In this document: positions 13,575 through 40,234 of the stretch, piece after piece
How the letters are laid out: each line of letters begins with the position of its first letter
How positions within the stretch are numbered: position 1 is the first letter of the stretch
Source of the DNA: Diphasiastrum complanatum
Lineage: Eukaryota > Streptophyta > Lycopodiopsida > Lycopodiales > Lycopodiaceae
Length of the DNA: 64,000 bases
Reading direction: 5' to 3'
Assembly: GCA_029204225.1 (NCBI GenBank)
Contig: CM055097.1
Location: 70,744,252-70,808,251 of the forward strand
The notes under the pieces: generated by a model
Told to the model about the DNA's origin: nothing
The model's input: the letters and a program-made list of their open reading frames with translations, nothing else
Database searches by the model: none
Program-made: the position numbers and the translations under genes

Positions 13575-14470
13575 ATGGCTACAATGATCCAGACAAGAGT
13601 AGCAATCAGTCTTGATGGCACAAATTACAGGATATGAAAATTCAAGATCAAAACATTTTTGAAGGGCGAAGGCATCTGGTCGGTGACCAAACTCTCAGAG
13701 GTGCAGCCTCCAGAGGGAGACCCGAGGAGAGCTGAATGGATCAGAAAGGATGAGCGTGCAATGGTGATCATCGTTTCATCCATCAATGAAGATTTACTCA
13801 TGCAGATTGAAGACTGCAAAAGCAGCCATGCAATGTGGGAAAGATTAAAACAGAAGTATGAAGTGAGGATTGCAGCTTCAGTCATGCATCTTTACAATCA
13901 GCTACAATCCATACGATGGGATGGCAACCAGTTAGATCAGCATGTTGAAAAGATTAGAACGATATTCGCTCAGCTCACTGCATCAGGACAAGAGCACCAG
14001 GTCCCAGCACCACAGCAGCTGATGTACTTCATGAAATCTCTACCTACGTCCTATCAGCCATTGAGAATGCTCATATTGAGTCTACCAGAGTTGACATTCG
14101 AAAAAGGAGTCAGTCTTGTCGCTAATGAGAGACTGATGAGGGATGAAGGAGAAAGAAGCAATGATCAAGAAAAGGTCCTCTTCACAAAAGGAAAGAAGAA
14201 AAACAAGAACAAATCTAGATTCGAGAAAAAGAAGTCCTCGAATCAAAAATCTTCTTCATGTGTCACTGCCACAAACCGGGCCATACAGCCAACAAATGTT
14301 GGTTCAATCCAGCAATATCTTGCATGCACTGCAAGAAGAAGGGTCACTCTGCATATGATTGTAGATTCAACCCAAAAAGAAAAAACAAAGCTAAAAAAGC
14401 TAATGTTGTAGAGTCGTCCAAGGATGCAGATAGAGGTGATGAAGCCTTCACGATACTCGATGAACAATGA
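13575..14470 (+). pseudogene. Copia gag with two zinc knuckles
   Basis: It starts MATMIQTRVAISLDGTNYRI. A TGA then stands where the conserved Trp of the NYxxWKFxI motif should be, and the frame continues open from 13659 to about 14257. A shift of frame then leads into two consecutive CCHC knuckles, CHCHKPGHTANKC and CMHCKKKGHSAYDC (14258-14470). The central UBN2-type domain (MWERLKQKYEVR, LTFEKGVSLVANERL) is well preserved. Two knuckles in tandem are less common than one in plant Copia gag. The TGA and the frameshift inactivate it. Confidence 0.87.
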
Positions 14471-14886
14471 GCTACACTGAACACAACTACGATGTAGTCA
14501 TTGATTTAGGAGCAACATCACACATCACCTGCAACAAGAAAATCTTGATCAACTTCAGAGAACTCGAAGACAACAGAGCAGTGATTCTAGGTGATGGGAG
14601 CATACACAATATCAAAGGCATCGGCACTCTACAACTGCGAACACTGTCAGGACAAGCAGAGCTGCCAAGAGCACTCTACGTCCCTTCATTGAGAAAAGAT
14701 CTGCTATCAGTCTCCAAGATGACAGATCTTGGAATTCGAGGTTTATTCGACGGCATCACATGCCGCATGATCGAGAATACGACAAACAAGTTGCCGACAG
14801 TCGGATGCAGAGAAGGAAACCTCTATCAAGCCAAAATAATCAGCAACTCTGATAGCATATTAAATGCATCAAAAAATGAAGATTAG
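14467..14886 (+). pseudogene. Copia protease and pre-integrase region
   Basis: The frame overlaps the end of gag by one codon. VVIDLGATSHIT stands at the active site, where D-S-G is expected: Ser is replaced by Leu, which should inactivate the protease. ALYVPSLRKDLLSVSKMTDL and the pre-integrase segment follow, ending at a TAG at 14884-14886. The same protein is recognisable in the minus-strand element at 7.9-8.4 kb. Confidence 0.87.
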
Positions 14887-14901
14887 CTCTAGCACAGGAG
14901 A

Positions 14902-15900
14902 ATGTATCATCTGAACATGCGGATCCTGTATGACATGTGCAAGAAAGACATAGTCACAGGTCTCAAGATATCAAGGCCCGAAATTGAGTTCTGCGAAGCC
15001 TGTCAGAAAGGCAAACAACATTGGAATCCATTCACACATGAGAGAAGAAGAGCCAAGGAAGTTCTTGAGCTCGTCCACTCAGATGTTTGTGGATCGATGA
15101 AGATGGATTCACTCTCAAGTTTGAGGTATTTTCTGACGTTCATAGATGATTACAGCCGGATGACCACGATCTACTACCTAAAGAAAAAATTTGAAGTGTT
15201 TGATTCCTTCAAGAAGTTCATGGCATTTGCAGAGCGACACACCTCAAAGAAGATTCAAATCATCAGATCTGACAATGGAGGTGAATACAAAAACAAGAAA
15301 GAAGAAACAAAACGCTAGTCAAAGGAGCTAGATGCATGATGGCACAGGCTCAATTGCCAAGTCAATCCTGGGCTGAGGCAGTAGCTGCAGTAGTACACTT
15401 GCAGCACAGATCCACAACGACAACTCTGGAAGATAAGACTCTGTACAAAATGTGGATAGGTAGAAAGCTTGATCTCTCATATGTACGTGTGTTTGGATGT
15501 GCAGCATACAAGCACATTCCAAAAGAAAAAAGAAACAAGCTTGATAACAAATCAGAGCAAACGGTCATGGTCAGTTACTCGAATGGATCATGAGTGTACA
15601 AACTCTACGATCCAACTACAAAAAAGGTTGTTTTGAGTAGAGATGTGAAGTTCAATGAGTCCACATTCCCTCCTGGACTGAAAGACGAAAGAGGCCATGA
15701 GATCTTCACACGGTTGTCTATTCAAGAGGGAGATCCATGACAGACGTCAAATCAAAATATTGAGCCACAGACTCCAGAGCAGCAGGAATCAGAGTATCAA
15801 CTCCACGAACAAAAAAACATTCGAACAGTGACGAAACGAATCTAGAAGGTCAACAAGACAAAGAAGACCTCCAGACTGTTACTCTCACAATCTTCAGTGG
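14902..15900 (+). pseudogene. Copia integrase, catalytic part deleted
   Basis: 14902-15318 carries the zinc-binding part (HLNM...FCEACQKGK) and the first two catalytic Asp regions (VHSDVCG, RSDNGGEY). The frame then breaks at 15316. The next readable piece (15336-15593) starts after the catalytic Glu region, at SQSWAEAVAAVVHLQ, and continues with VRVFGCAAYKHIP. The segment with the catalytic Glu is therefore missing. The C-terminal linker towards reverse transcriptase runs to about 15900 with stops. Confidence 0.87.
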
Positions 15901-15959
15901 AGCAAAGACACGCAGTTCGAGTACTGCAGCTTCACTGAAGAGCCAACAACATACCAAGA

Positions 15960-16956
15960 AGCTATCCAAAGTCTAGAGGGAGAATTCTGGAAGCAGGCAA
16001 TGTTAGAGGAGATCGAGTCGATGAGGCAAAATGAGGCATGGACACTAGAGCCACTGAAAGAAAACAAAAAATTCGTAAACCACAAGTGGGTATACAAGAA
16101 GAAGATGAAATCATATGGCACCATTGGCCGCTACAAGGCAAGGCTTGTCGCAAAGGGCTACACACAGGGATATGGTGTTGATTATTTCGACACATATTCG
16201 CCGATGGTCAAGATGACAAGCATACGACTACTCCTTGCATATGCCACACAGCACAATCTGGAAATTCACCAGATTGATGTGAAGACAACCTTTCTCCACG
16301 GAGATCTAGAGGAGAACCAGGCATCACGAGCTTGGTATAAGAAGCTCGATAGTCTTTGGAAGTCTCTAGACTTCAGTCCTACACAATCGGACTGTAACGT
16401 CTACATAAAAAGAGTAGGAAAATATTTTGTGATACTGACTACTTTCGTGGATGATTCCCTGATGATAAAAAATTCCTTGATGCTGATCAAAGACACGGAA
16501 AGTCAGATTTCTGAAAACTATGAAATCACAAATCTAGGAGAAGCAACGAAATGCCTCAGGATGGAGATCAGAAGAGATCGAACAAAGGGCAAAATGCATT
16601 TGAGTCAGTCAGAATATGTCAGAAAGGTGCTTAAGTAGTATCACATGATGGAGTGCAAAGAAAGGCCACACCAATTATAGCTGGAGCCAAGATGACGAAG
16701 TAGGATTGCCCTAAAATGGAAGAGGAAGAACAAAATATGGCAGGTATACACTACCAAAACTTGATCGGTAGTCTGATGTACCTTACAATTTGTACCAGAC
16801 CCGATCTAGCTTTCTCTATTTACGCCTTGAGCCAATTCTCTTCCAATCCTGGCATGGCACATTGGAAGATGGCAAAACAAATCCTACAGTATCTAAAGGG
16901 TACCCAGAATATGGGATTAACCTACAAAGCTAAAAACGAAAAAAAGAGATTCGAGC
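15960..16956 (+). pseudogene. Copia reverse transcriptase and partial RNase H
   Basis: The reading starts upstream of MLEEIESMRQNEAW and contains HKWVYKKKMK, YKARLVAKGYTQ and IHQIDVKTTFLHGDLEE. An internal deletion then leads to ASRAWYKKLD. The catalytic loop reads TFVDDSL instead of YVDD, followed by NLGEATKCLRMEI. After a frame break, 16716-16956 gives NLIGSLMYLTICTRPDLAF up to YLKGTQNMGLTYK. The rest of RNase H is cut off exactly where another LTR begins at about 16957. Confidence 0.88.
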
Positions 16957-16958
16957 TG

Positions 16959-17426
16959 TGTGAGAGATTTCAAATAGCTTAGTCTAGTTTAGTCATATTT
17001 TGGTAAATTGTCAATAAGAGGCCAAAACTCATTTTAGACTTAGAGATAAACTTTTTGAAGTTATATTATTTAAAATACATTCAATAAACACTTTTTAAAA
17101 GTGTGAGAAAGTTGGTAGTCGAGTTTGAGAGAGATTCAAATTTGAACTTTGATTACATTGAATCTAGACCCAAAAATAGTAGGATTTACATTTTGGAGGG
17201 AAGCCAAGTGACCAAGTAGGGTTTGGACACTCTATAAAAGCATGTGACTCATGGAGAGACAAATCTTCTCTCTTCTCTCTCTGATTGAATGCATGTAGTA
17301 GTGTGTTTTTGCCATAGAATCAAAGATAGATCTTGAATCTCAATCTAGTCTTGATCTTGGTGCATCTACACACCTTAGGAGATCACAAGTACGTGTTGTG
17401 GACAGTCCACATGTGTGAAATTAACA
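16959..17426 (+). mobile_element. Copia 5' LTR nested in the preceding element
   Basis: It starts TGTGAGAGATTT and ends GAAATTAACA, directly before TGGTATCAAAGCC at 17427. The start coincides with the sudden end of the previous element's RNase H. It matches the minus-strand LTR at 11282-12036 in its first 400 bp but lacks the later 'cacacgtgtgaaatac' part. A TATA-like 'ctataaaagc' at about 17230 precedes a short pyrimidine patch. Confidence 0.82.
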
Positions 17427-18157
17427 TGGTATCAAAGCCTACCTAAGGTTACCATGCATTTTGATCCATTTGAGTGAAAACTTTTCTTCAATCTCTAGAA
17501 ATTGTCAAGTTCCATTTTCCTAGCTATCTTGTCTAATTTTGGATCATGATTGGGTCTGACCTGGTACTGTATGGAATCAGGTGCTCAGACACGTGTGAGG
17601 AACATCCAATTTCAGATTGAGAGTTCTCTCTCATGCTTGATTTTTTTATTTGCTTGATAGCTTGTTCTGAAGCTATTTTCGTCTAGTTTCTGATGCAATC
17701 AATTTCATTCCATTTGGTTGAGCCAATCAAAAGTTATAAGCTTTTGAAGAGGGTTAGGTAGGGCACTCAGACCTGGGTGGACACATTTGGTTTGGTCAAG
17801 AGGTTGCTTGGTTGATCATTGTTCACAGTTGTATGGTTACCAATCTCATTTATAAGTGATCTAGACATTGTTTTGAGATCATAGCCAATTTGTTTCATGC
17901 AATATCATTGAGTTTGAGTCAAATTGGGTTACTTAGTGTATTTCACATGCGCTAAGAGTAAATGATCCTAACTTTCCTATTGTCCATCATTTGATGTGAA
18001 ATAGATCTTGTTTTAAAGAGATGTGAGTAGCTAGTGAGAATCAATTTACAAATTGTTGCAAGATCTTTCATAGGAGGAGATAGCACTTCATTATTGGATC
18101 CTATTGAGAGTGTGTAGCAACATTTATTGTTCATCATTTGAGTTTTCTTCACTTTAA
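17427..18157 (+). other. Primer-binding site and untranslated leader
   Basis: TGGTATCAAAGCC resembles the initiator tRNA-Met site with one change. The 700 bp that follow have no gene on the plus strand and act as the element's leader. A 201-codon minus-strand open frame at 17952-18557 is opposite gag and accidental. Confidence 0.7.
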
Positions 18158-18960
18158 ATGTCTTCAATGAGTTCATCTTTGTTGGAACCAAGTGAAAGCT
18201 TGTCCACCTCATACTATTCAATTTGGAAGATGAGGATGGAATCCATCTATGATCCTTCAAGATGTGATGGACATAGTTCTTGGCCTTGAAGAAGAACCAC
18301 AAGTTCTTCAAGAGGTTCAAAAATACAAAAAGAGAGCTAGGATGGCTCTTCACTACATTAAAATGAATATCTCTAATGAGATATTGAGGGCAATAGGTAC
18401 TTGTACAACAGCCAAAGAAGCTTGGGATTGTCTCGAGACTATCTATGAGGCTGAGAACACATCTAGGCTCCTCACTCTTAGAAATCAAATCCTCCAAAGT
18501 AGCCAAAAGAGTGATGAGAGTGCATCTAGTTATGTTTTGAGAGTAAAAGATATTCATAGAGAGCTTGCTTGCATTGGTGATTCCATCAATAAAAATGAGC
18601 TAGTCCAAGTCATTCTCAATGGCTTGAGAAGTTAATTTGATAACATTTCCAATCCTATGCCATAAAGGAGGAGCTACCAAGTTTGGAGACTCTCCAAAGT
18701 GTGCTAATTTCCGAAGAATCAAGACAAGAGTATAAGCCGCTTGAGGATGGACAAGCTTTCTCTCACTCATAATAATGGCAAAGCCCTCTTTGCCAAGGAC
18801 AAGCACAAAGGAAGGAGCAAGAACCAATATCAACAATCCTCAAGCAAGGAAAAAGGTAAATCCAAAGACAAATATGAGGAGGAAGATGATTCCTCTATAA
18901 TCAACTCAAGCAAGCCAACATCACCAATCAGAAGGAAGACACTATTGCAAGTGATGGAGA
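18158..18960 (+). pseudogene. Copia gag, zinc knuckle lost
   Basis: It starts MSSMSSSLLEPSESLST and YYSIWKMRMESI. A frameshift near 18240 leads to the main stretch 18249-18635 (DVMDIVLGLEEEPQ, TSRLLTLRNQILQ, ASSYVLRVKDIHREL). A stop follows LNGLRS at 18633-18635, and the Lys/Ser-rich tail continues to about 18960 in another frame. The CCHC knuckle expected before the protease is not present. Confidence 0.85.
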
Positions 18961-19004
18961 GGGATCTCTTATGGCCTCTAGCTTCTCATCCACTCCTTTC
19001 AAGA

Positions 19005-20310
19005 AGGACGGCTTATGGTATATTGATAGTGGAGCCTCTTCACATATGTGTAGCTCCAAGGATTCTTTCTCTTCTATTTCACCTTATGATGGAGTCAAGA
19101 AATCAATATACACTACAAATGACTTTAATGTCCTATTGAAGGCATAGGGAACATTCCCTTAAAGCTTGCATCCTCTAAAGTTCTTTCTCTTTCTAAAGTT
19201 CTTTATGTGCCTAAGCTTACTAAGAATCTCATTAGTGTTGGCCAATTGCTTGATAATGGCCTTGATGTAAAATTCAATGTTGATACTTGCACTATCAAGA
19301 AGAATGATGAGATACTTGCATTAGGATCTAGATTTGGAGGCATCTATAAACTAGATACAAATGAATATGTGAATGCTTGTAATGTTGCTCTTGTGAACAA
19401 GCTCTCTATGGAGTAATTATGGCATAAGAGGTTGGGACATCCCAACTACAAATCCATGCTCTCTATGATTAAAGAGGCCAAATCTATTGGCTTGCCAAAG
19501 TCATTCTCCAAGAAGATCAAGCCTTGTGAGGCTTGTGCTATTGCTAAATCTCAAAAAAATCCATTTACAAGATCTTCTATCAAAAGCAAGCATCCTTTAT
19601 TTCACAAGATTCACTTGGATATATCTTCTTGCTTCTAGATCTATGGTGTTTGATCATTTTCTTATTTTCAAAGCTTATGTAGAGAAGCAATTCTCATTCA
19701 AGATGAAAGCTCTTAGATGTGATGGAGGTGGTGAATATATCTCCAATAAATTCCATGATTTTTTTGAGCTTGAAGGCATCAGAAGAGAGTTCTCTTGTGC
19801 CTATTCTCCATCTCAAAATGGAGTGGCCGAGAGAAAGAATAGATCTCTATGTGAATGTGCAAAATCTATGAGAATTGAGTCATCTTTGCCCAAAGATTTT
19901 TGGGGAGAATCCATTAATTGTGCAAATTATCTTTGCAATAGGCTCCCACATATAGCTCTTGGAGGAAAGTCACCATATGAAATCTTATATTTGAAGAAGC
20001 CTAAGGTTGATCACCTTAGAGTTTTTGGATGCATATGCTTTGCCCATATTCCTTGGAAACAAGGAAGAAAGAAGATCCTAGTGCATGCAAAGGGATCATG
20101 GTTGGATACTCATCCACCAAAAAGGCCTATAGAGTCTTTGTACTCTCTACTTCTCAAGTCATTGAAAGTAGAGATGTTGTTTTTCATGAAGATCAACATT
20201 TCCCGCATTCACAAAAAACCTTTCATGAAGAACACAAATTTTGTTATTTAAAAAATGTTTCAAATAATGAGCCAACAAGGCATCCTTATGTCTCCCGCCT
20301 TGTCTCTCTC
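19005..20310 (+). pseudogene. Copia protease and integrase remnant
   Basis: LWYIDSGASSHMCSSKDSF at about 19010 has an intact DSG protease triplet. VPKLTKNLISVGQLLDNGL (19207-19416) and the integrase zinc region (GHPNYKSMLSM...CEACAIAKS, 19432-19638) follow. The first catalytic Asp region is deleted near 19640. RCDGGGEY and NGVAERKNRSLCE (second Asp and Glu) are present at 19700-19860, as is FWGESINCANYLCNRLP. The reading decays after 20250, and reverse transcriptase is absent. It meets the unrelated cassette near 20305. Confidence 0.87.
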
Positions 20311-21446
20311 TAAATCCTCCATGCCTGCTAGCAAAGGCATCAACTTCGACGATATCCTACAACACATAATCAAGTGTTAGTCAAACTAGCAGATCAATCA
20401 TCAATTACATGTTAAATAATACATGATTTTCGTGAGAAGGTGTACTTACCAAATCCTCCTCGTCAGCTTGGATCATACAGCAGCATCTAAATTGTGACCA
20501 GCAATAATGGTGGATTGCTGGTCAGCTGGAATAGTATATGTGGGAGGTGGCGGATACTTTTTCTGAAAAGCCAAAAACTCCTCCTCACTGGGCATATTAG
20601 CCTCATATGCCCTGCTCTTAGATAGCATCCTTTGAAGGGCATCTGTGCCACTTTCCCATTCTACCTGGTCCTCATAGTCGATGCCATCTATGAGGTCGTC
20701 ATCATCAAAGTCAATAAAATCTTTTAATTCAGAAATCATCCTTGACATAAGAGATAATATCTCATCTTCTTTGAGATCCATTACGTCTCCGATGTCACTA
20801 ATGGATAAGAATGCAACATCGTCCATATGGTACACAGGGAGGTCCATCAGGGTTCTGCTCTGGTCAATCTCGCTCGGGGTAGATAACGGAGAGATAGACA
20901 GAGAACGAGCCTTGGCAGGATCATATTGTTCTGCTTGTCTGACCTCCTCTACATCTCCTAAAATCTCATCAATAATGGAAACCTCTGAAGCCACATGAGT
21001 GGTAGGGGCAGGCAAACCAATCATGGACGACCCAAAAGATTCTGCCTCGTCAGGGATAAGAGCAGATAAGAAAAACACAAAGGCCATACCCTCCTGAACG
21101 AAGCGACATACTCGATTGTGTTCCTCACAGGGTATGACACGTTTAAATAGATCAATAAGTTTGATAAACTTACGATCAAAGGCTTGGCACTTGGCTGAGC
21201 ATGAGCCAAATCTGTGAAATGCACAAATCTCAAGCCGTCCATCAGAAGGGTACCCTGTTGCAAGCACTCATAAAAATCCTTGTACAGTTTAGGAAAAAAT
21301 TTCCTGTGCTCAATAACAAATCTCTCTATGTCAAACTGAAAATCGAAATAGGACAAAAAATGGGCCTGTCTGTCGCTAACCTCAGCATCAACTAGGAAAG
21401 AACTAAGAGCTTTATCATAGATCAAACTAGTAGACGAGGAGGCCAC
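20305..21446 (-). CDS. Acidic protein of unknown function, two exons, frame broken
   Basis: I do not recognise this protein. The minus-strand reading begins near 21446 with ASSSTSLIYDKALSSFLVDA. The first codon is GTG where ATG would be expected, so a lost start or non-ATG start is possible. It runs through FDIERFVIEHRKFFPKLYKD to about 21180. It then shifts frame by one base within 'gccaagcc' into FDRKFIKLIDLFKRVIPC. The C-terminal half is strongly acidic (DFIDFDDDDLIDGIDYEDQ). A second one-base discrepancy lies near 20470. The exon then ends at a good donor (G|GTAAGT, 20450) and continues from an acceptor (TAG|, exon from 20356) with DIVEVDAFASRHGG. It is divergently transcribed from the H3-like/protease gene, and its length is about 350 residues as seen. 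Conserved coding quality around each break suggests recent decay or sequencing indels. Confidence 0.55.
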
Positions 21447-22270
21447 ATCGATATGACGTGCCGGTTAGCAAGGGGACATAAATGAGGTACTGCGGGCGCG
21501 TGATGGCGATATGCACTATACGTGAATCCGAATATCGGAACCACGCGCCAGGGAATCAGTGCAACTATGGATGTCTTTGTTGGGCGCGTGGTAGCGATAT
21601 TGTACAAATAGATTTGGAGCAGGCTGGTAAATTTGACTCAATATGCAAAACTGAATTACAGAAACAACACTCATATATATAGTCTAATACAGAGCATCTG
21701 AACCGTACACGTGTCTCAGTAACGTGCGGTCAAAATTGCCACACATGTGGAAACGACGACGAAATCATTCTGAATGACACATGTACACTTCGGATCCTGA
21801 CACGCGTCCTTGCACGTGCATGCCAACTGTACTATCGTACGTCCCAATCGTCTTCTGACGCATGTGTGGTCTAGATGTCGCCATGTGTCCTCGCACGTGC
21901 ATGCCAACCGTCTGATCGTATGAACCGTTGATATCCTGACACGTGATGGATGCGTGTGACCACACGTGCGGGGAGTGGAGGTGTCACATCGAATGTGCGA
22001 ATGTGATGGGACGTTCTACAGGTATAAGAGGACGTTTTCGGTTCTTATTTCAGTTTCTTAATTCTTTGTTCTCTGGCTCTCCTTAGTTTCCTTCGTTCAC
22101 TTTTGCTCCCCGCTAGACGCATATCGCTATCACGCGCCAAAGGACCCACATACCAGTACAGCTGGCCCGCCCGCGCGTCATGGTGATACGCCATCGCCAT
22201 CGCGCGGCTCCTCTGTCGAATACCTGCTTTCCTTGCTCGTTGGTGCGTCATATCGATACCCTACCTTGCA
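21447..22270. promoter_or_regulatory. Divergent promoter region flanked by inverted repeats
   Basis: The 824 bp between two divergent genes hold a dense cluster of ACGTG and CATGTG words between 21700 and 21980. These include 'gtacacgtgtc', 'gcacgtgcatgcc' twice and 'acacgtgatgg'; CACGTG is the plant G-box. The block 'gcacgtgcatgccaac' recurs at about 21812 and 21893. Both outer edges carry the same sequence in inverted orientation: 'atcgatatgacg' at 21447-21458 and its reverse complement at 22246-22257. Further matches inside include 'agcaagg' and 'cacgcgcca'. A TATA-like 'ggtataagag' lies at 22020 on the plus strand, about 250 bp before the H3-like start. The composition is GC-richer than the surroundings. 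Confidence 0.6.
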
Positions 22271-23838
22271 ATGGCCCGTACCAAGCAGACAGCCCGCCTT
22301 ACCACATTTGCCTCGCCTCCTCGCCCTCCTCTACAAAGGGCAGTGGGCACTGGTAGGAGAGTAGGTCGGCCCAGAAGACCATGGTTAAGGGATATCAGGA
22401 GACTTCAGAGGACCACGAATCTTCTAATTCCTCGTGCTCCTTTCTACAGATCTGTGAGACTGGTAACAAGGTCCCTCTCACATGATGTTCGCTGGAACAT
22501 AACAGCCCTGGAAGCCCTCCAACTGCCTATGAGAACTTCCAAGTCAAATTCTTTGAAGACTCCACGCTTTCCACAGTGCACGCAAAGAGAGTTACCCTCA
22601 TGCCTCAGGACAAGCATCTTGTCATGAGGCTGAGGAGTACATATGATCAGGTCTTTAAGAATGGCTTCACCTCTAGGCCACCACCTACAAAGAGAGGTCA
22701 TGTTCCTCAACGAAGGAGGAGGAAGCAGACCAAGCCCGCCAGGCCTGCCAAGCAAAGGGTGGTACTCGGCGAATCGCCATCCCCCCCTCACATCTCTCGT
22801 GCTTTGGTTGGACCATCACACCATTCTGCAGTGCCTTCTTCTCCTCCCACCACCCCTAACTATTCAAGTAGTTCCTCTTCCATTCCCTCCATTCCATCCC
22901 ACAATAACGAGGAAATGAACTTGACTATAGATAAAATAATATCGGATCTAGATTTAAGTTTAATAGGTGATTTTTATAAGGATCTTTGTGTAAGATTTCT
23001 TGTTGATCCCAAAGATTCATTTTTGGATTTTGAGAGGTATATATTTTTTGATGAGTATGTTGCCAAAGAAATTGACAAGCTAGGAGGTCAATTTCCTTTT
23101 TGTCTAAGTTCAATTAATTATATAAATCACATAAATAAAGACTTTTGTGATGCCTTGAAGGAGAAGACCTCAGATATATCAGATCCAGTTGTGGAGGCTG
23201 GTTTGATGTATTTTGTAAATAGATGTCAATGCGATGATACTAAGGACATTGGAGTTGTGCTGTCCTTTTTCGCACACAACCTTCATAGTCCAACTAAGGC
23301 GACGAAGTATCTTCTCCATACAACCTCGGAGACCAAAGTCTTTATTATTCCATACTGTCAAAAGTAAGTGATTACATAGAATATACTCTAGTAATATTTT
23401 TAATAGGTATTGTAATTCCTTTACTTTAACTAATTATCTCTTGTTTGCAGTAAGCATTGGAGTATGCATATAATCTCCCTTAGGGAAGATTCAGATGAGA
23501 TAATTAATCCTATCTGTTTAAAGATGAACTCCTTAAAGTCTACCCATGCCAAAATGGACGTGATGTACAGCAGAATGTTGCCATTTTTGCCAAGGCCAGA
23601 TGGGGCCACTGTAAATAGCCACCTGGAGATTGTTGATGCAGAAGTAAGTATTTCTCATCAAGTATTTGATAGGTAATATGATCTGTGTTTTTCAGAGTGC
23701 ACAACTAACCTATTATACGTTTTGTGATTGAAGTCAACTCAACGAGAGGCTGGACATAGTTGTGGATGGTTCTCCATCCGCAATGTACAGAACTTTTTAG
23801 AGTGGTACATCATGCAATCCGGGGCTTCAGATATATGA
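22271..23838 (+). CDS. Histone H3-like fold fused to a Ulp1-type (C48) cysteine protease
   Basis: The protein starts MARTKQTAR, identical to the first nine residues of histone H3, and is followed by a divergent tail. The aligned fold starts with the alpha-N helix PWLRDIRRLQRTTNLLIP and alpha-1 APFYRSVRLVTRSL. RWN at loop 1 and ITALEALQ of alpha-2 follow. After a one-base break at 22522, VHAKRVTLMPQDKHLVMRLR gives loop 2 and alpha-3. A basic, Pro-rich linker (KRGHVPQRRRRKQTKPARPA) and a Ser-rich stretch lead to a C-terminal region of about 270 residues. Splicing 23363 to 23451 (AA|GTAAGT...TTTGCAG|T) creates NKHWSMHIISL, the catalytic His region. Exon 2 ends at 23643 and exon 3 starts at 23734, giving TQREAGHSCGWFSIRN with the catalytic Cys and upstream Gln. 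The Asp position appears as Asn (LKMNSLKSTH). TGA at 23836. The total is about 465 residues. Such proteases remove SUMO-like modifiers; a nuclear, chromatin-directed role is inference. Confidence 0.75.
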
Positions 23839-24193
23839 AAGGTAAATAGACTAGTGAATGGCCTAACTAAGTTATTTTTAATTTGGTTTTTGATAAGTCA
23901 ATTGACCCGATTCTTTTGGATTTGCAGTATGAATGTCGAGCATTTTCAGAGGCCAATCAAGTCCACAACTGACACTAGTGCAAGGTGGAGATAATCCATA
24001 CTACTTTTGAGCTATAAATAATAGATTAAATAGAGATATACATTTTTTATGTAATGCCCTGTGAATAATTATGGGCATATAGAAAGATAGAGACAATGAG
24101 AAAAAAGCATCCATTGTTAAATACAGGACACATGTACATTTTCAAAAAATGAGAAATATATTGATATTTATGAGAGCTTTTACAAATCTTGTA
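23839..24193. other. Possible last exon and convergent 3' region
   Basis: A donor-like AAG|GTAAAT follows the TGA at 23842, and an acceptor-like TTTGCAG lies before 23928. A short open stretch of about 15 codons (YECRAFSEANQVHN) follows. If the TGA is a decay mutation, the protease could have had this extra exon. The rest of the interval is AT-rich and separates two convergent genes. Confidence 0.35.
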
Positions 24194-25700
24194 TCATGAT
24201 TGCTCTAATATCTGAACAATTCCGTCCAAATCTTTGCATTTGATTATCTCTTCATGTCTTTTACGTATCTGCACAAACATACATTAATCAGATTATAATT
24301 AGTGATCCGAATATTGACAAAAAGGATAATGAATATAAATTAATATACAAATTCATAGATTTCACATACCAATTTTCAATCCAATATAAAGTTGAAATAT
24401 TCGAAGATATTTTGCTGTAAAAGTGTCAGTTCCGTTCTAATGTAAAATAAGGTCCAATCTTGCTCAACCTCAATAGTAGTAAGTAAATTCCCATTTGCCA
24501 TGATATCAATGCCTATACGATCAATGTGTCCAATGCTATCTAAATCTTGATCTAATGGGACCCAAATACCATTGTGTTATTTCCATCTCTGATAATGAAA
24601 CACCATACTAAGCATTTGCTTTTCTATACTGTATCTAAATGATATGGATGAATGTTTGATTTTGTAAGAAATATCTGCAGTGGATCTTATATCCCAACCT
24701 TTGTCCATGAATTTGAATAAAAAATCATCTGAAAGATTTTTGCAAACAAACAATGTGGAAGTTCCATGCACTTCCGTGTTTGAAAAAGAGCTGACAAACA
24801 ATGACATTGGAACAAACCAGCTTAAGTGCACATTTCTTGATCCTATACTAGTTTTGAGTGACTTTTGTACATCATTATATAGCTTGGAAAGAAAGCATTT
24901 TATTATATTGTCGTTGACTGCAATCCACCACACGTTATCTTGAAAATTAAGTAGAGGTATATACTCTAGTTTTTCCATTCCTCCATTTGTGTCTGGAATA
25001 TACATAGCATCATAAAAAAATATTCCAAAATCTGCAAGTTCTTTTGTCGTTCGTCCTCTGTATTGCAATTTGCCAATTTCTGAATGGATGGCATCTATAA
25101 TACCAGAAAGAGATGCCACAGGTTCCCATTCATGTATATTTGAAGGATATAGATCTGCAATACAAAATCATAATAAGCTCCAATTCATAAATACGACTAA
25201 GTTTCAAGCAATCCAAAAAATTAAAATACTTACAGTTAAACTTTCAAAAATCATGTGGATTTACAGCCTCCACATTAAGTTCTGAATGCATATAAACATA
25301 TTGAATAAGCACCTCTAAAGTGGTTTGTCCTCCTGGAGAAACTTTGAAATCAATAATCCGCCCGTTCCAATAAGATCTATATGTATACTTGGCCTTTTTC
25401 TTTTGACGAAAAGCCCCTCTTGCCGATGGATGCATCAATACCCAAAAAACCTTATGATATTAATCCATGTGCCATCGTCTTCCCTCTCATTATAAAAAAT
25501 TGCAGAGCATATCAAGGATCTTAGTCTCCTTCTCATCGCCATAGTCTGAAGAGTTCACGTTTGAACTCGTCAATATGAGAGTCCAGAGTATAATAGGCGC
25601 CAAACCTATTTGTGAGTCCCAAGATAATTTTAACTTGAAGTTAACCCAAGCAGTTTAGTCAACTAGTCGTCGTGCACACCAGCCAATAGTATGCTTCCAA
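24194..25700 (-). pseudogene. Unrecognised multi-exon gene convergent to the H3-like/protease gene
   Basis: I recognise no domain. On the minus strand three coding blocks are joined by good splice sites. Block one is about 25234-25690 and broken by two frame shifts; it contains TKILDMLCNFL and YRSYWNGRIIDFKVSPGG. A donor (T|GTAAGT) lies at 25233 and an acceptor (TTGCAG|) before 25154. Block two is 24370-25154 and starts YPSNIHEWEPVASLSGIID. It contains EYIPLLNFQDNVWWIAVND and FRYSIEKQMLSMVFHYQRW, a TAA at 24574-24576, then in frame HIDRIGIDIMANGNLLTTIE and a TGA just before a donor (TG|GTATGTG). The last exon is 24194-24268 (KRHEEIIKCKDLDGIVQIL). Frame is kept across both introns, so this was a real protein of more than 400 residues and is now inactive. 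Confidence 0.55.
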
Positions 25701-26259
25701 TCTACCGAACCGGAAATTCAAATTTGCCCAAATATGAATTGTGTTTTTCGAGTCAGGCGAGTTATGTTACATAGAAGCCAGTATATCAAGAACCGATTGG
25801 GCCACATGGACATAAACAGAGAGGGAAAAAAAAAACTCGTAACAAACGACCCTTCGAAGTTTGAAAACTTCTATAATGATCATTCAGATGACAAGGCTAT
25901 GCTGAATATTTCAAAGAAGATTCATCTATATTTGCAAAAGGTGATGGCAACTTAATTTCTTTTGGAATCCCCATAAGGTGTTTTTGATGGTTTGTAGATA
26001 TAAATAATAAAGTACTTGCTCATGTCAGTTAATCCTTCATCAATCATTGTTAACATGATACCTTCATCTGTAATGTCTACATGTTCATTAACTAATGGAT
26101 TTGGCAGCCATTCTATTTGAATAAGCTCAACATCTATATAAGAAACATAAAATAAATCCATAATCGGTTGATCTATGCTTGTAGACGTTATCGTTATTGG
26201 TTTCTCAAATTCAAATCATACATCATTACTGCATCTTTGAGCATCTACACAATCAATCG
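25701..26259. other. Coding-like fragments on both strands, unassigned
   Basis: A plus-strand open stretch of 73 codons (25734-25955) contains NREGKKKLVTNDPSKFENF. A minus-strand stretch of 69 codons (25952-26161) contains ELIQIEWLPNPLVNEHVDI and extends upstream in frame. Either could be a further exon of the genes in this cassette. I recognise neither. Confidence 0.3.
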
Positions 26260-26900
26260 TGGTTAGAAACTGCACAGGCTAGTTCGAACCAGGACCAAGG
26301 AATAGACGCAGCGAGGCTTGATATTCATGACCAAGGCCTAGCTAGACACCAGCCAAGGCACAGACCAGGAGCCAAGAACAAGCCCAAGAGGAGCAACAAG
26401 CGTCCGCATCCCAATGCTCCCCCACCATATTTGCCAATCGTGCATTTCGCAATCCTAAGGCCGTGGAGAATGAAATCAACAAATATGTAGTCCAGTATCC
26501 ACATGAATCCTCACGCAACGGCCGGCAGATATCATTCTCAACAAAAGACATCAGAGGCAATGAGCTGGCATGCCATTTGGCATTGGAGCCACAACCTGAC
26601 TAGCGGCATTTGAGAAAGATCTGGCGGTCATCAAAACATATGTGACTTATAACCCACGCCAGTTTCGCGTCAACCCACATTTCATCCCCATTTCATGACA
26701 ATCAAAATGGGCGAAATGTGGCACTCCCTTGAACCAGATCACCATCCAAACACTCAACTAGCCCACAATTTACTCGGAGCATGGGTGGGACACAGACGTA
26801 AATGCCAAAAGGGCTCTCATCCAATTTTTTAAATACTATATCAAGTGCCCTGATCTCACTAGAAGCAATTAGTAGAGTAGCTGAATATTAAGCTCACCAA
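26260..26900 (+). pseudogene. Unrecognised coding remnant
   Basis: A plus-strand reading rich in Gln, Pro and basic residues (HQPRHRPGAKNKPKRSNKRP) shifts frame near 26430 into NRAFRNPKAVENEINKYVVQ and RNGRQISFSTKDIRGNELA. After a further break come EKDLAVIKTYVTYNPRQFRV and DVNAKRALIQFFKYYIKCPD, ending at a TAG near 26870. The successive pieces look like one protein with three or four small frame breaks. I do not know the family. It is probably part of the same cassette as the H3-like/protease gene. Confidence 0.4.
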
Positions 26901-29509
26901 CTAGTCAAAACACTGACCATTTTAGAATGACGACATTACAGTGGGAACTGCAAGTGTATACATCGTACTCTCCATTGTTATCCTTGTTGCAACAAGTAGT
27001 TATTGCGAGTTTTAGGAGTTTTATTAGTTTACCCCACATCCCAACAACAAAACTATGTGCTTAAAGTGTAAGCATCTCTTCCAAAAATCAACTGCTCATT
27101 GGCAAGACCAGCAAATTAAGAAAAAATAAACTCGTTAAACAAACACACAATTGATTTACTTGCTATATAGATGCACTCGAAGGATGAGAAGCATTTTTCC
27201 CTAGAGGAAACAAATGAAACTAAAATGTTGGTAAAACCTATTTTTAAGTCTAGATTGTCTCAAGCCAACGTTGCTGAGGAACAAAATACCTTTAGAGACA
27301 TCTATGATATAGTCAAAAAAGTTAGTCTCTGATCCAAAGGCCACTTTTCAACAATTGTTAGATGGTAATAATACCTCCTACAAGCAGCAATGAAAAATAT
27401 CCATTTATAGTATGAGGAAAGCAAAGCTACCAAAAGTTCACACTCCTTCGAGTTGACGCAGGATGTTGGAGCTTTAAATGAGAAGGTTGTCTCATATTGG
27501 CTTAATTTTGGCGTAACATAAAACCAGGTTAAGAAATTCTATTAACTTGGATTGCTTCCTAAGCACTTGGCTTAGACTAAGCAAGCTAAGCATATCAAGC
27601 AAAACAACAGAAACCCAACTACCCTATGTTCAACCTCTTATGACAGTTCTTGTGCTGAAATATTTGGGAGATGAGCTGACATTCTCCATACTAGCTTCAT
27701 GCAAATTCCTTGGTCTGATATGTAACTCCGACCATGCTTGCTCGTGTGTTTGCATCTCCAAATCTGCCAAGGAAGACTTTCCAGAATGTTATTTCAACGA
27801 GCATCAGCGATTTGTTGTCCTTGGGGCTTCCCGTAAATCTTAACATTGTGTTGTGCTCGGCCTTGGGTTTATAGGGTACGAAAAGTTGCTTTCTAATTTA
27901 GAACTAGAACATAAAACTATAGCTGAAACAAATAAACAAAGCATTATCATAAAGATCATAAAATCAAAGAAAAACAGCTAAGGACATCAAAGTTCAACTC
28001 GTCACAAAAACAATTTAATTCATATTTTTATTTTTATGAAATAATTCATCCACCCTACTTAGCAAAATCAATAGATACAACAAGAATGTCGTATGGACAG
28101 AGACAAATTTATAAAAGCTTAATACTTTCTGGCAAATGAGGAATGGTGAGAAAATATCATCCTCGCCCATTTATGGTAAAGAGTCTATGAAGTTACAGAC
28201 AATAAAAAAAGAAACACTACTTGGAATATGGAAACATGAAGCCTTGGGCCTATGTGCACATTTATAACCATCTTAGCCGATCATTTCAAAATCAATAAAC
28301 CAATAAACTGATCAAAACATCCACTTCAAGCAGGATATGACTAATGAATCACTTAGACATGAATAGTTCTAGATCTACCACCAAAAAGAAACAGGCGAGT
28401 CACGCAATTCACTGACTCATACACCCGTACTTATACAATGTGTTCCCATTTAAGTTTAGCACTACCGTTAGAAGACGCTCGTCCAAGTCTTAACCTTAGT
28501 TATGTTATAAAGTGGAAGGTGTTAAGCTTTTGATTGATAGTAGATATGTGTCACAATAGCTTACAATGATGCAGCCTGGTTTCTCCTACTTCGTAAACGG
28601 TTTAACTTTGGATCATATTGGAAAGCTACGTGTGGGCTTCTTGTAAACAACACAACTTGATTCTTGCCTGAAAGCAGATAGAATAAATTTGCTGCCAGAA
28701 GTAGTAACATGCAGCCAGCGATCCATCTTCCAGTTGGAAATTTGCAGGGAAGTATTACAGCAGATCATTTGGGCCATTGGAAGATGTTCGAGAATTAGTG
28801 TCTTTCTTGTACGTTATTGCTCCTAGCAATAGTCAGCATGAAGTGCGAAGACAGCCAACGTGTTCTGCCTATGAACTTCCTATGCGACTATGGAAAGCTG
28901 GTAATATTCAAGTCTATAGATACCACAAATTCAAAACATAGTCCAGAATACACGTATTCACATATGCCAGAACAGTTTATGCACCTCCCCCCCGTAATAC
29001 TGACTTGCTTTTTCATAAGAGGCTTCACTAGTACTGATGATAAGCCAACAGTTTCCTTACAAGAACGGTGTGCATTATCTTTACCTGCAAATATAATTGT
29101 ACAGCTACCTGCAAGTAAAACTACATTTTTAAGCACCATGTCGAATGCTGCGTGCAAAGTACAAAGTTCGAGCGAAAACGCTTCCCAAACACAGCCTGGA
29201 TTTCCTGTCCAGAAAGTGCATTTTTCAAATGTAGTCAAAAGTATCACAGCAAATAGGACAAATACCTAATTCATAATAGAGCTTTCTCCATGTATCACTG
29301 GGAAGATACAAGCTATCTTGCATCAATCCCCACTTCCACTTGCTGAGCCACGCCATTGGCCTAAACACCCATCAAAAGCTGCACCAAAACTACAGCCTTC
29401 ACAGATTGCATTCTCAAAACTAGCGCAGGCACATCATCACAATACAACCTTTTATAATTCATTTATTTTCACAGTAAATTGATGCTCTCCGTTTCACTGT
29501 ATTTGCTGC
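26901..29509. other. No recognisable gene
   Basis: Mostly AT-rich, unique-looking sequence. Open frames at 27547-27843 (98 codons) and at 28817-29269 on the plus strand overlapping 28888-29247 on the minus strand have no recognisable domain; I see no motif that would make them genes. The right end is the 3' flank of the BZR1-type gene and should contain its polyadenylation region. Confidence 0.4.
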
Positions 29510-30518
29510 CTACTTGAACATATCAGATGGCCTCTGAGGCGAACCCAGCGGTGTGTTTTGATTGGAAGCTCTGGATTCCTGCAGGAAAGTCTGTTGCTGA
29601 GACAGCTGCATCATCATCATAGCTGGGATCTCCCCGTGGCCGTATCTGAGCTGAGCTTGCTGGGTAGTATTGTAGAGCAAATTGGACATTGTACCCAGAG
29701 CGTTGAGTCTTTGTATCTCTCTGGAATCCATACCGTCCGCTGTAAGATAGAAAGAGCTAAGATCCTCCTTCATTCCATATGTGTCTCGCAAATCCAAAGG
29801 AACTTGACTACATGGCAGGTATCCTGTAGGAAACCCACCCACATAGGTGTTGACAGTTCTTACGCTGGGCGCCCCTTCGCTGGAGGCGGGTGAGGTGAAC
29901 GGGGAAGACAGGTTAGAGCTACTGTGTAGCAGGGATATGGATGTACTGTTTGAGGTAGCCCCTACATGGCGTGGGGATGCAGTTGTAGAACAATCACCAG
30001 TGCGACAATCCCCAAAATCTGTCAAAATGGCCGGCAGTGTGCAGGCAAAACCTCCCATGCTGCCACCACTGTTAGCTAGGGATGCCCTCCCTGATGATCC
30101 AGCGGCTTGCAGTAGCGAGGGCTGGATCCCATGGCTTCCCGATGCCTGCTGCTACCGCACACAAAGTCACCATCACCAAATGAATAATCATAATCAGCGG
30201 ATTCTAATTCTTTCAATCACTCCTTAGAAACTGAAAGCGGAAGAGACACCAGTTTACCTGAGATCGATACGTAGTGCCATCAGGCTCCACAATCCATCCT
30301 GCTTCCTGCGCCAGCGCTTTGAGCACATCGTTGATGTCGGCTCGAGGGGGCAGGTTATAACCTCCGTGCTTTCTCAAACCTGAAAAGATTTTGGTGGTGA
30401 TTGCCCTGCGCTGCCGCTCTCTCAGCTTAGTCTTCTCCTTCTCTTTCTCGCTCAGCTTCACCATGATCTTCGATGACAGCCCCGCTGATCCGTCCTGCTG
30501 TTGCTTATCCTCCTGCAT
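29510..30518 (-). CDS. BZR1/BES1-type transcription factor, two exons
   Basis: Exon 1 (30518-30258) starts [19 protein letters not shown] and holds the BZR DNA-binding domain. This contains [20 protein letters not shown] (non-canonical bHLH-like basic region), [20 protein letters not shown] and [16 protein letters not shown]. It ends at a CAG|GTAAAC donor. After a 109-bp intron, exon 2 (30148-29510) encodes a Ser/Pro/Gln-rich tail with [33 protein letters not shown] and the end PSDMFK. The total is about 299 residues. BZR proteins bind E-box or BRRE sites and mediate brassinosteroid responses in seed plants. The [17 protein letters not shown] and LPxRADxNDV wording is nearest to the BZR domain of beta-amylase-like BAM7/BAM8, but no amylase domain follows. 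The frame is intact, so the gene is probably functional. Confidence 0.88.
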
Positions 30519-30599
30519 CAGTCCAGCCAGAAACAATCCAACTTTACAAAGAATCAGTTTTATCTCGCCCCAAGATTTAATCTACAACAGCAGATTCTG

Positions 30600-38328: not shown

Positions 38329-40234
38329 ATGGTGGCAGATTTATGCCTTGAGATGTTTTGCAAAAATTCTACTGACATTTGTTTATTTGTTGATAGTGTT
38401 CAAGAGCTCATGGCAATCACAACTTGCGAGATGAAAGAAGAAGACACAGAGGCACAAGTACTATTCTGGAGGATGCTAAACATTACAATAACTCAAAAAG
38501 GGCTTCAAAGAGCCTGACTTCCATGGTTTCATGGCAGACAAAGTGCAAGGAAATTGGAGAGCCATTCGTGCAGTATATAATGGAGGACCAGAAAATATCT
38601 TACACGGTCACGAGAGATCTTGTCTCTTCCATTGGGAGAAAAGTCTTCAAATACACACGACTCAATATATATTCAAGCAATATCAAGACGAACACAAGAA
38701 TATATGTCGCAAGTGGAAAAATGTGGCAACAACAGATGAAGCTTTGTTGCAATTCAGATTTATTAGAGCTTGGTGGGCCAGTGGAAAGGTAGCAGATGCC
38801 AATTTGCCTGCAATGAGTAGCTGGTTGAGTTGGTGGAATGTACGTTATGCACATTGGCGACATCTTCTATTTGGGGTAAGATGTTTGGTTCACGCTATTT
38901 TATTGTGGTCAAATATCTTGGTCTCCTATGAGTTGAGTAATGTCTATCATTTTTTTAACATTGACTCAGGCCAACGACCTTACAGACATCTCCAATACAC
39001 CTCTAATCAACTTTTCTTTTTTAACATCGATTCAGGCCAACAACATTACAAACATCTCCAATACACCTCTTACCAATTTGGTGGAGTCAAAGCATGCTAG
39101 TTGGTTGGCAGGTGAGGGTAATAAATCGCAAATCAGCCTTTATGACATTGCAGTTACTGATCTATCAAATGCACTATTGCAAAGCACCAAGCAATATGCT
39201 TTTGTGCAAGGCAAGCATATTGGAACTGGCCCTAGTTTGGAGGCTCTTATTGACAGAGCCACATCTAGAACCAACACCACACCTAGCCCATCTATAGCTG
39301 GTAAAGAGTCTCTGATGCAGTTGGTGAGACACCAATGTACAGTAAACCATGCCCATTAGGTGATCGGATCACTTCCCGTAGAAAACAAAATCCGACCATT
39401 TTTGTGGATGTCGAAGCCAACAGTTCGCATAGGCCAGAATATGTGAATGTGAACAGGCCTCGACAACGTGGCGGTAGACATCTACAATTTCTCGATGTAG
39501 AGCCTATAAATGTGGAGGCTACAAAGAAGGAACAAACGTTTCAAGGAGGACCTACAACAAGCACATTGAGTATTGTGAATGAGACAGATGTATATGACAC
39601 ACTTTGGGCAATACATAGAACCAAACCAAGAAGCAAAGTCAAGGGTATGGGATGACTAGGAGCTCAAACAGGAAAGTGTCAAAAGCAAATAAAATATAGT
39701 TCAAAAAGCATCCCAGCCAATGGCTTTTTGGGAATGCGTGAATGGAGCGTTGGTAAAACAAAACAGTTCATGTGGTTTTGTAATGATAGTGTGGACCACA
39801 CATGGAGACCATGCTCATCAATTGTTTGTGGGCAACCTGAACTATCTTCCATATGGCAAGTACAAAAAGGAACAAACTTGTTATGTGAGGAGAAGGAGAT
39901 GTTAGAAAGAGCTGGATTTGTTCTAGGTACTGTTGAACAGGTCAATCTTCCAGAAAGCAGTCAAAGAAGGACCCACATTCGAACAGGAATATCCAATGAG
40001 GCGTCAAAGAAAATAGATCTAGCTTTGAAACTACAAGCTAAAGTACTATCGGTGATAGTGTTGAAACGTTTTGAGCATGAGGTGTTCTCATTGGAAATCG
40101 AAAATTCAGCTAAGCAGCATAAAGCTTATGATGTACATATCTCAGAGAATCCTTCTTGTTCATGTCAAGATTTTCAAAGGCAAGAAAGAACTGGAAAATC
40201 TTACCTTGCGTGCAAGCATATCTACATTTTATAA
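38329..40234 (+). pseudogene. MULE (Mutator-like) transposase with SWIM zinc finger
   Basis: 38329-38517 gives an N-terminal fragment with a stop. The core reading is 38505-38875: KGFKEPDF, FMADKVQGNWRAIRAVYNGG, RSCLFHWEKSLQ and FRFIRAWWASGK. This is the MULE transposase type with D-x...W-R-A-V and C-x-x-H-W. An intron (G|GTAAGA at 38876, acceptors at 38969 or 39035) leads to ANNITNISNTPL and ESKHASWLAGEGNKSQISLY. Later pieces, 39335-39655 and 39728-40234, end with CSCQDFQRQERTGKSYLACK followed by H. That is the CxC...CxH SWIM finger normally found at the C-terminus of these transposases. Frame breaks between blocks make it inactive. Confidence 0.75.
38950..39085 (+). repeat. 66-bp duplication containing a 3' splice site
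   Basis: 'ttttttaacattgactcag' with the following 'gccaac.ac.ttaca.acatc' recurs 66 bp downstream ('ttttttaacatcgattcag'). Both copies offer an in-frame acceptor (before 38970 and 39036), and the segment between them is 22 open codons. Confidence 0.8.

Follow-up and report, generated by a model that had tools for sequence, protein, structure and literature searches.

A histone H3 fold joined to a Ulp1-like protease domain in a very probable mobile element of the clubmoss Diphasiastrum complanatum

Can a histone H3 and a Ulp1/SENP-type (C48) cysteine protease share a single gene, and if so, to whom does that gene belong? The question is raised by a 64,000-nucleotide stretch of the clubmoss Diphasiastrum complanatum (C6:70744252-70808251 of a 1.74-Gb assembly; hereafter the window), in which a first-pass annotation, made from the letters alone, had read a gene that begins as H3, ends as a C48 protease and is perhaps encoded by a mobile element. 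We followed up this reading with profile and structure searches and with a search of the whole genome; the features of the locus, at which we call the fused gene gene C, are collected in Table 1.

The MARTKQTAR start lies at window position 22271, and the Pfam histone profile PF00125 matches both the piece at 22271-22525 (E 8.4e-9) and, separately, that at 22525-23364 (E 4.7e-6). The annotation had allowed for one break near 22522; the break indeed falls after codon 84 (22522), with the second frame restarting at 22525, and a translation read through it with an X scores 76.4 bits against a cut-off of 26.4 (E 2.9e-21). No stop interrupts the second frame between 22486 and 23367 (293 codons), so that the end of H3, the linker and the N-terminal half of the protease form one exon, in agreement with the claim that the two domains belong to the same gene. 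Among solved structures, the best 60 of 171 matches to the 22271-22525 piece all bear the name of H3 or of an H3 variant. P0005 (O6H91_14G014700 of D. complanatum), at 59% identity the nearest H3 in the protein database, was modelled by AlphaFold with 25 H3-like sequences aligned and adopts a predicted histone fold (pLDDT 80.9, pTM 0.58), the best 50 rows of a Foldseek search of the Protein Data Bank (PDB) with this model all being titled nucleosome or histone-octamer. Structure prediction, one of the checks that the annotation had proposed, thus supports the histone half through this relative, the model being of P0005 and not of the fusion; for the C48 half it did not succeed, a single-sequence prediction of the window's C48-containing piece giving no usable model (pLDDT 37.5).

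Gene C shares with H3 and CENH3 the ARTKQTAR tail start, the H3 fold, loop 2 and the alpha-3 core HAKRVTxMPxD, but differs from them in a Pro-rich stretch that replaces most of the tail, an alpha-2 end reading HTAYED where H3 has QEAAEA, and a C-terminal extension of about 330 residues. Most copies of the subfamily to which the window copy belongs (subfamily 1) begin with H3-like residues, and K4 is present in all 21 that are readable there, whereas the K9 position is Leu in 20 and Ile in one. Because Leu stands at K9 and the rest of the canonical tail is missing, the gene C protein would be unable to carry H3K9 or H3K27 methylation.

Table 1. Features of gene C and of the element copy that carries it (window positions)
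Feature	Position	Strand	Basis
Left-truncated element copy; lacks ~3.2 kb on the left, gene A included; adjoins presumed Copia remnant at 20200	20200..25878	+	
Gene B, divergent to gene C; encodes acidic protein; in this copy split over two frames	20473..21464	-	Open frames
Divergent B-C promoter region: CACGTG motifs, inverted repeats	21465..22270	.	
Gene C exon 1, H3 tail (MARTKQTARL) and fold to frame break	22271..22522	+	PF00125 E 8.4e-9; PDB H3 matches
Gene C exon 1, remaining H3 fold (to GFT), shifted frame	22525..22671	+	PF00125 E 4.7e-6; frame unbroken in some other copies
Gene C linker, H3 to C48, basic/Ser-Pro	22672..22929	+	Open frame; least constrained part between subfamilies
Gene C C48 (Ulp1/SENP-like) N part, still exon 1	22930..23363	+	PF02902 on spliced translation, match mainly in C-terminal half
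Gene C intron 1, GT-AG	23364..23450	+	Splice-site reading, copies compared
Gene C exon 2: catalytic-type His codon 23455; Asn for Asp codon 23527	23451..23643	+	
Gene C intron 2, GT-AG	23644..23733	+	Splice-site reading, copies compared
Gene C exon 3: Gln codon 23740, Cys codon 23761, TGA 23836-23838 (window copy)	23734..23841	+	
Gene C candidate exon 4 past third intron (donor 23842)	23928..23995	+	Sequence inspection only
Gene D, convergent, one exon	24577..25167	-	Open frames
Right terminal inverted repeat, ends TAATG-3'	25846..25878	-	

Downstream of the linker, removal of the two GT-AG introns creates NKHWSMHII and HSCGWFSIRN, which hold the His and the Cys of C48 proteases, with the Gln upstream, just as the annotation had read them. 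The profile check it had suggested finds the C48 domain as well, PF02902 scoring 23.6 bits on the spliced window sequence, just over its cut-off of 20.7 (E 5.4e-5), and exceeding that cut-off in three subfamily-1 sequences (23.6, 25.0 and 27.2 bits); Pfam searches with the separate exon pieces of the window gave no C48 match. A profile of four C48 sequences, picked as nearly whole and spanning two subfamilies of the gene (see below), had only five PDB matches at E<=10, weak (E 0.022-0.11) and all to a Ulp1-like protease or SENP2, while phmmer with C48 found no match in the PDB and the linker-C48 region as a protein query none at E<=10 among 919 candidates. The order of the His-Trp, D/N-S and QQ...CG motifs is that of Ulp1/SENP proteases (PF02902), from which gene C differs in its low scores, its fusion to H3 and a family-wide Asn in place of the triad Asp. 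In subfamily 1 the catalytic-type residues are kept in most rows (His in 21, Gln in 20 and Cys in 19 of 22), and the four-sequence alignment shows no change at His, Asn, Gln or Cys. The Asn (MNSL), which the annotation had also reported, occupies the Asp position in all 20 subfamily-1 rows that are readable and in all four subfamily-2 copies read. Peptidase activity is in doubt because the triad Asp is Asn, yet some Cys proteases with other folds, such as papain, can work with an Asn. About 82 bp that most aligned copies carry at 23948/23949 is absent from the window.

The fusion is not confined to this locus. A query covering the end of H3, the linker and the N part of C48 (P0002) has at least 138 matches in the genome, from 134 scored places among 7651 first-look candidates, a lower bound in which some matches come from small contigs duplicating part of a chromosome; 47 of the 138 listed have no stop within the matched part. 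Matches of low identity, considered as possible old subfamilies, proved to be mostly frameshifts within the same subfamily. We aligned 28 sequences (27 loci and the window), dropped six that had been re-fetched or were near-identical, and recognized two near-duplicate pairs (L011/L026 and window/L009) among the remaining 22 rows, leaving 20 distinct copies. Four of these (L012, L015, L016 and L019) run stop-free from the Met through exon 3, L016 with small indels in H3 and L019 with an altered first splice donor; the other sixteen are broken. A frame common to dispersed copies genome-wide rules out a chance open frame, and recurrence of the junction at many loci and in a second subfamily rules out an assembly artefact or a misprediction joining neighbouring genes. 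We are thus all but certain that H3 and C48 are fused in one reading frame.

The window copy itself is dead, given the frame break in H3 and the late TGA at 23836-23838; its gene B is broken too, and its left end and gene A are missing, while other copies keep an open frame. Here the annotation, which had suspected a dead copy, was right about the outcome and about the TGA, but wrong to count the Asn as evidence, that substitution being, by all the sequences read, a trait of the family and no sign of the death of one copy. The copy on C14 closest to that in the window (L009, C14:15766000-15775999) is a sister, 98-99% identical to window 17548-29554 over the element copy and its flanks apart from two internal differences of about 1 kb; it has the late stop as its sole stop, an altered splice acceptor and Tyr in place of His.

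P0005 led back to the same architecture. It is located twice on C14 at 100% and represents the H3 fragment of a second subfamily with at least 150 genome matches at 76-100% identity (150 of 6678 candidates scored). At the locus that holds it (L054, C14:7056002-7056412), a single stop follows H3, after which the same frame runs on through the linker to C48; the intron sites seem to be those of subfamily 1, and MNSL and QQDDAFSCGW are both present. Over 429 residues, with intron columns treated as gaps, the translation of this locus is 44.9% identical to that of L015, and a homologue of gene B lies divergently upstream (48% identical, E 4.9e-37). Three further copies picked for long frames (L056, L057 and L058) have an open exon 1 leading from H3 into C48, PF00125 scoring 82.2 bits on that of L056; in none of the four copies read does the frame stay open across exons 2 and 3. 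His and Cys are each present in three of the four, L056 having lost the His and L058 the Cys, and the C48 of L054 alone scores 13.5 bits, under the PF02902 cut-off of 20.7. Subfamily 2 is thus an older relative, about 45% identical to subfamily 1, with the same H3-C48 architecture, and O6H91_14G014700 is the H3 part of a repeat copy ended by a stop and not a stand-alone histone gene. The annotation had said that its reading would fall if no homologue anywhere joined both domains; at least two subfamilies within the D. complanatum genome do so.

Have the two domains been kept by selection? Variants were placed in the L015 frame and N/S was expressed relative to expectation, with a mutation-spectrum control. 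Across the 20 distinct rows (5000 simulations), shared variants gave 0.23 for the H3 fold (0 of 5000), 0.77 for C48 (P 0.16) and 0.76 for the linker (P 0.26), and singletons 0.99 (P 0.48); with all 22 rows the outcome was the same (H3 fold 0.29, 0 of 2000; C48 0.76, P 0.11; C48 core 0.83, P 0.27; linker 0.84, P 0.34; singletons 1.01). Shared variants of subfamily 1 hence show no significant constraint on C48. Between the subfamilies, compared with four subfamily-1 and two subfamily-2 copies (L057 and L058 left out), raw differences at codon positions 1, 2 and 3 were 0.305, 0.230 and 0.605 in H3, 0.511, 0.434 and 0.611 in the linker, and 0.372, 0.329 and 0.570 in C48 exon 1. Positions 1 and 2 being less changed than position 3, both domains were therefore under constraint during the divergence of the subfamilies, H3 the more strongly. 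Past purifying selection, as read from these alignments, is clear for H3 and is seen for C48 between subfamilies only.

These comparisons bear on two other accounts of the fusion. One is that the H3 and Ulp1 genes are passengers, as in transduplicating MULEs, and that the fusion does nothing for the element; gene capture is common among plant DNA transposons, according to the portion of a review available to us (PMC13317346), and the sixteen broken copies and the lack of significant C48 constraint among shared variants would fit it. We nonetheless think passive capture improbable, given that two subfamilies at about 45% identity share the architecture and apparent intron sites and that in both domains position 3 has changed far more than positions 1 and 2. 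A second account, which we hold to be doubtful though somewhat less so, is that the H3 part works alone, as a decoy or a silencing-resistant H3, with C48 serving as a non-catalytic binder or decaying as a tail. The H3 fold shows the strongest constraint, C48 is not significant within subfamily 1, Asn replaces Asp, some copies of both subfamilies have lost the His or the Cys, and an H3-only derivative that has been amplified on C3 still has many open frames; against this stand the four residues invariant in the nearly whole C48 sequences of both subfamilies, and the conservation of C48 exon-1 positions 1 and 2 relative to 3 between them. The C3 sequences deserve description in their own right: 26 of the 150 listed subfamily-2 matches cluster there, at 18.5-21.8 Mb and 29.9-30.2 Mb, 18 of them stop-free, and at the one locus read (L059, C3:19088743-19090443) H3 is intact to about residue 130, C48 is lost and other repeat sequence follows, so that the cluster appears to be a locally amplified H3-only derivative.

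Gene C sits within a longer repeat. Among 20 copies of 10 kb, the boundary at window 20200 is common to 12 and that at 25878/25879 to nine, and extension of three copies yielded two full elements of 9017 and 9063 bp, starting CATTAG and ending TAATG, while homology of the third (E6) ends about 1.5 kb short. Like cut-and-paste DNA transposons, the element has terminal inverted repeats (TIRs), which are imperfect (CATTA...TAATG; 26 of 34 columns alike by raw count). The left end has at least 40 scored matches in the genome among 852 candidates, the query copy's own included, and three of eight further end pairs had a right end within the stretch examined, which, with one of them a near-duplicate of L021 and with E3, E10, L021 and L023 added, makes six distinct insertions with both ends; inspection by eye found no target-site duplication at these six. 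The common ends, the at least 138 matches and the second subfamily bear out the suggestion of a mobile-element origin, and we consider the repeat very probably a mobile element.

The element holds four gene-like regions, genes A (+), B (-), C and D (-). Gene A comprises several exons or broken frames with what we take to be transposase-like motifs. Pfam searches of gene A, B and D pieces, in which diverged pieces could be missed, gave nothing above cut-off, including no MULE transposase or DUF1985 and, for gene A, no hAT transposase or dimerisation domain; gene A gave nothing convincing against the PDB. Gene B frames are longer in three other copies (L025, L017 and L028). CACGTG occurs five times in the B-C intergenic region against 0.55 expected (500 simulations; one of seven patterns counted), and inverted repeats with arms of 27 and 20 bp flank the promoter region (window 21447-22257), with two related 34-bp copies (85%) inside. 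In L014 and L028 the element's left half is inverted beside the gene C half, a rearrangement in which the inverted repeats of the B-C region may have taken part.

The structure of the repeat weighs on whose gene this is. That it began as a host gene, a lycophyte H3 variant such as CENH3 fused to Ulp1 and then duplicated, is scarcely credible: the residues TNLLIP, and RW before alpha-2, which we take to be CENH3-like, and the standing of P0005 in the database as a D. complanatum protein speak for it, but copies are many and dispersed with common ends and a TIR, their private changes are neutral, P0005 corresponds to the H3 portion of a repeat copy that contains a stop, and in a weak tree, subject to a long-branch warning, the family and P0005 form a separate long branch apart from the three CENH3 rows. 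That tree likewise gave no support to the CENH3 origin that those residues had brought to mind. C48-like or related proteases do maturation in some DNA viruses and Polintons, and the linker is basic, as might suit a gene C protein whose C48 cleaves element proteins while its H3 packages or condenses element DNA; yet Pfam found no capsid, packaging ATPase or polymerase domain in the element open reading frames tested, and the element is merely about 9 kb long, leaving such a role very unlikely.

What, then, might the fusion do for the element? Mobile elements are silenced largely by histone H3 methylation and SUMO-assisted repressors. We propose, tentatively and as something rather short of an even bet, that the gene C protein acts against silencing. 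Its H3 part would pair with H4 and bring the protein to nucleosomes or to histone chaperones; the tail would offer no K9 or K27 methylation site while keeping K4; and the tethered C48 domain would remove SUMO or a related modifier from nearby silencing proteins or, if inactive, bind it. The element could in this way counteract its own silencing, much as VANC and the Ulp1-carrying KIU proteins may do for VANDAL elements, but aimed by a histone instead of a sequence-specific DNA binder. The full statement, that gene C of a TIR-bounded element of about 9 kb encodes an H3 tail and fold, a basic linker and a Ulp1/SENP fold (His-Asn-Cys, Gln) that counters the silencing of that element, seems to us about as apt to be right as wrong. 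A bolder version, which we regard as unlikely, would have the transposon make a replacement histone: H3 without K9 and K27 sites, carrying a tethered SUMO protease and deposited on element chromatin, where heterochromatin marks could not be written and SUMO-dependent silencers would be stripped. Such a protein would be a histone-based weapon against silencing, kept by selection in at least two element subfamilies. An element that encodes an H3 without the methylated lysine, joined to a SUMO-protease-like domain and maintained by selection, would mount a direct counter-attack on the silencing machinery. It would also allow the question of why Ulp1 domains occur in plant transposons to be tested on a single protein; the exact function of these domains is called unknown in a review (PMC13317346).

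Each half of this arrangement has a precedent. As far as the accessible part of the paper describes it, a hAT transposon of Pyrenophora tritici-repentis carries an H3-like (H3L) open reading frame (Manning et al. 2013, PMC3538342) and shares with the element here a multi-copy TIR structure, a divergent H3-like frame and a further frame of unknown function; it differs in being fungal, in having a hAT transposase and in keeping H3L as a separate frame without C48 fusion, and its 26 H3L genes are very similar, whereas ours fall into two diverged subfamilies. On the protease side, the available portions of the papers place KAONASHI/KIU Ulp1-like genes in VANDAL MULEs, KIU with a diverged C48/Ulp1 domain (PMC6117577, PMC13317346), and describe VANC, a DUF1985/DUF287 protein that binds short motifs, as lowering DNA methylation of its own VANDAL elements (PMC5735166). 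All are proteins of plant DNA transposons, and KIU shares the C48/Ulp1 domain with gene C, but the word "histone" is absent from the main text of the KIU papers in the form available (PMC13317346, PMC6117577), and the element here, unlike VANDAL, gave no Pfam match to a MULE transposase or DUF1985. A search of open-licence literature for an H3-Ulp1 fusion or for transposon-encoded histones brought up no paper naming such a fusion, and a protein search (two matches at E<=0.01 among 5950 candidates) returned no protein with both H3 and C48. Transposon-borne H3 and transposon-borne Ulp1 are thus known separately, and the fusion of the two is apparently new, no report of it having been found.

Among other proteins considered, a chytrid H3-actin fusion (P0003) is unrelated beyond H3, and P0004 of Ceratopteris is an H3 with a long tail in which no C48 was seen. 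P0004 (Ceratopteris richardii KP509_02G080900; 22 member sequences) belongs with P0024, P0032 and P0035 to a set of H3-like proteins from ferns that open on a MARTKQTARK-like sequence and have an inserted tail whose length varies; these too are possibly repeat-borne.

Elsewhere in the window, the element copy adjoins at 20200 one of what are presumably Copia-type retroelement remnants (13638-20251), among which Pfam matches an integrase domain in 19469-20248. Another gene of DNA-transposon type, which has a SWIM zinc finger (PF04434) and which we assume to be MULE-like, lies at 38397-40234, and the clearest host gene in the window, encoding a BES1/BZR1 transcription factor (PF05687, E 2.5e-36), lies at 29510-30581 on the minus strand.
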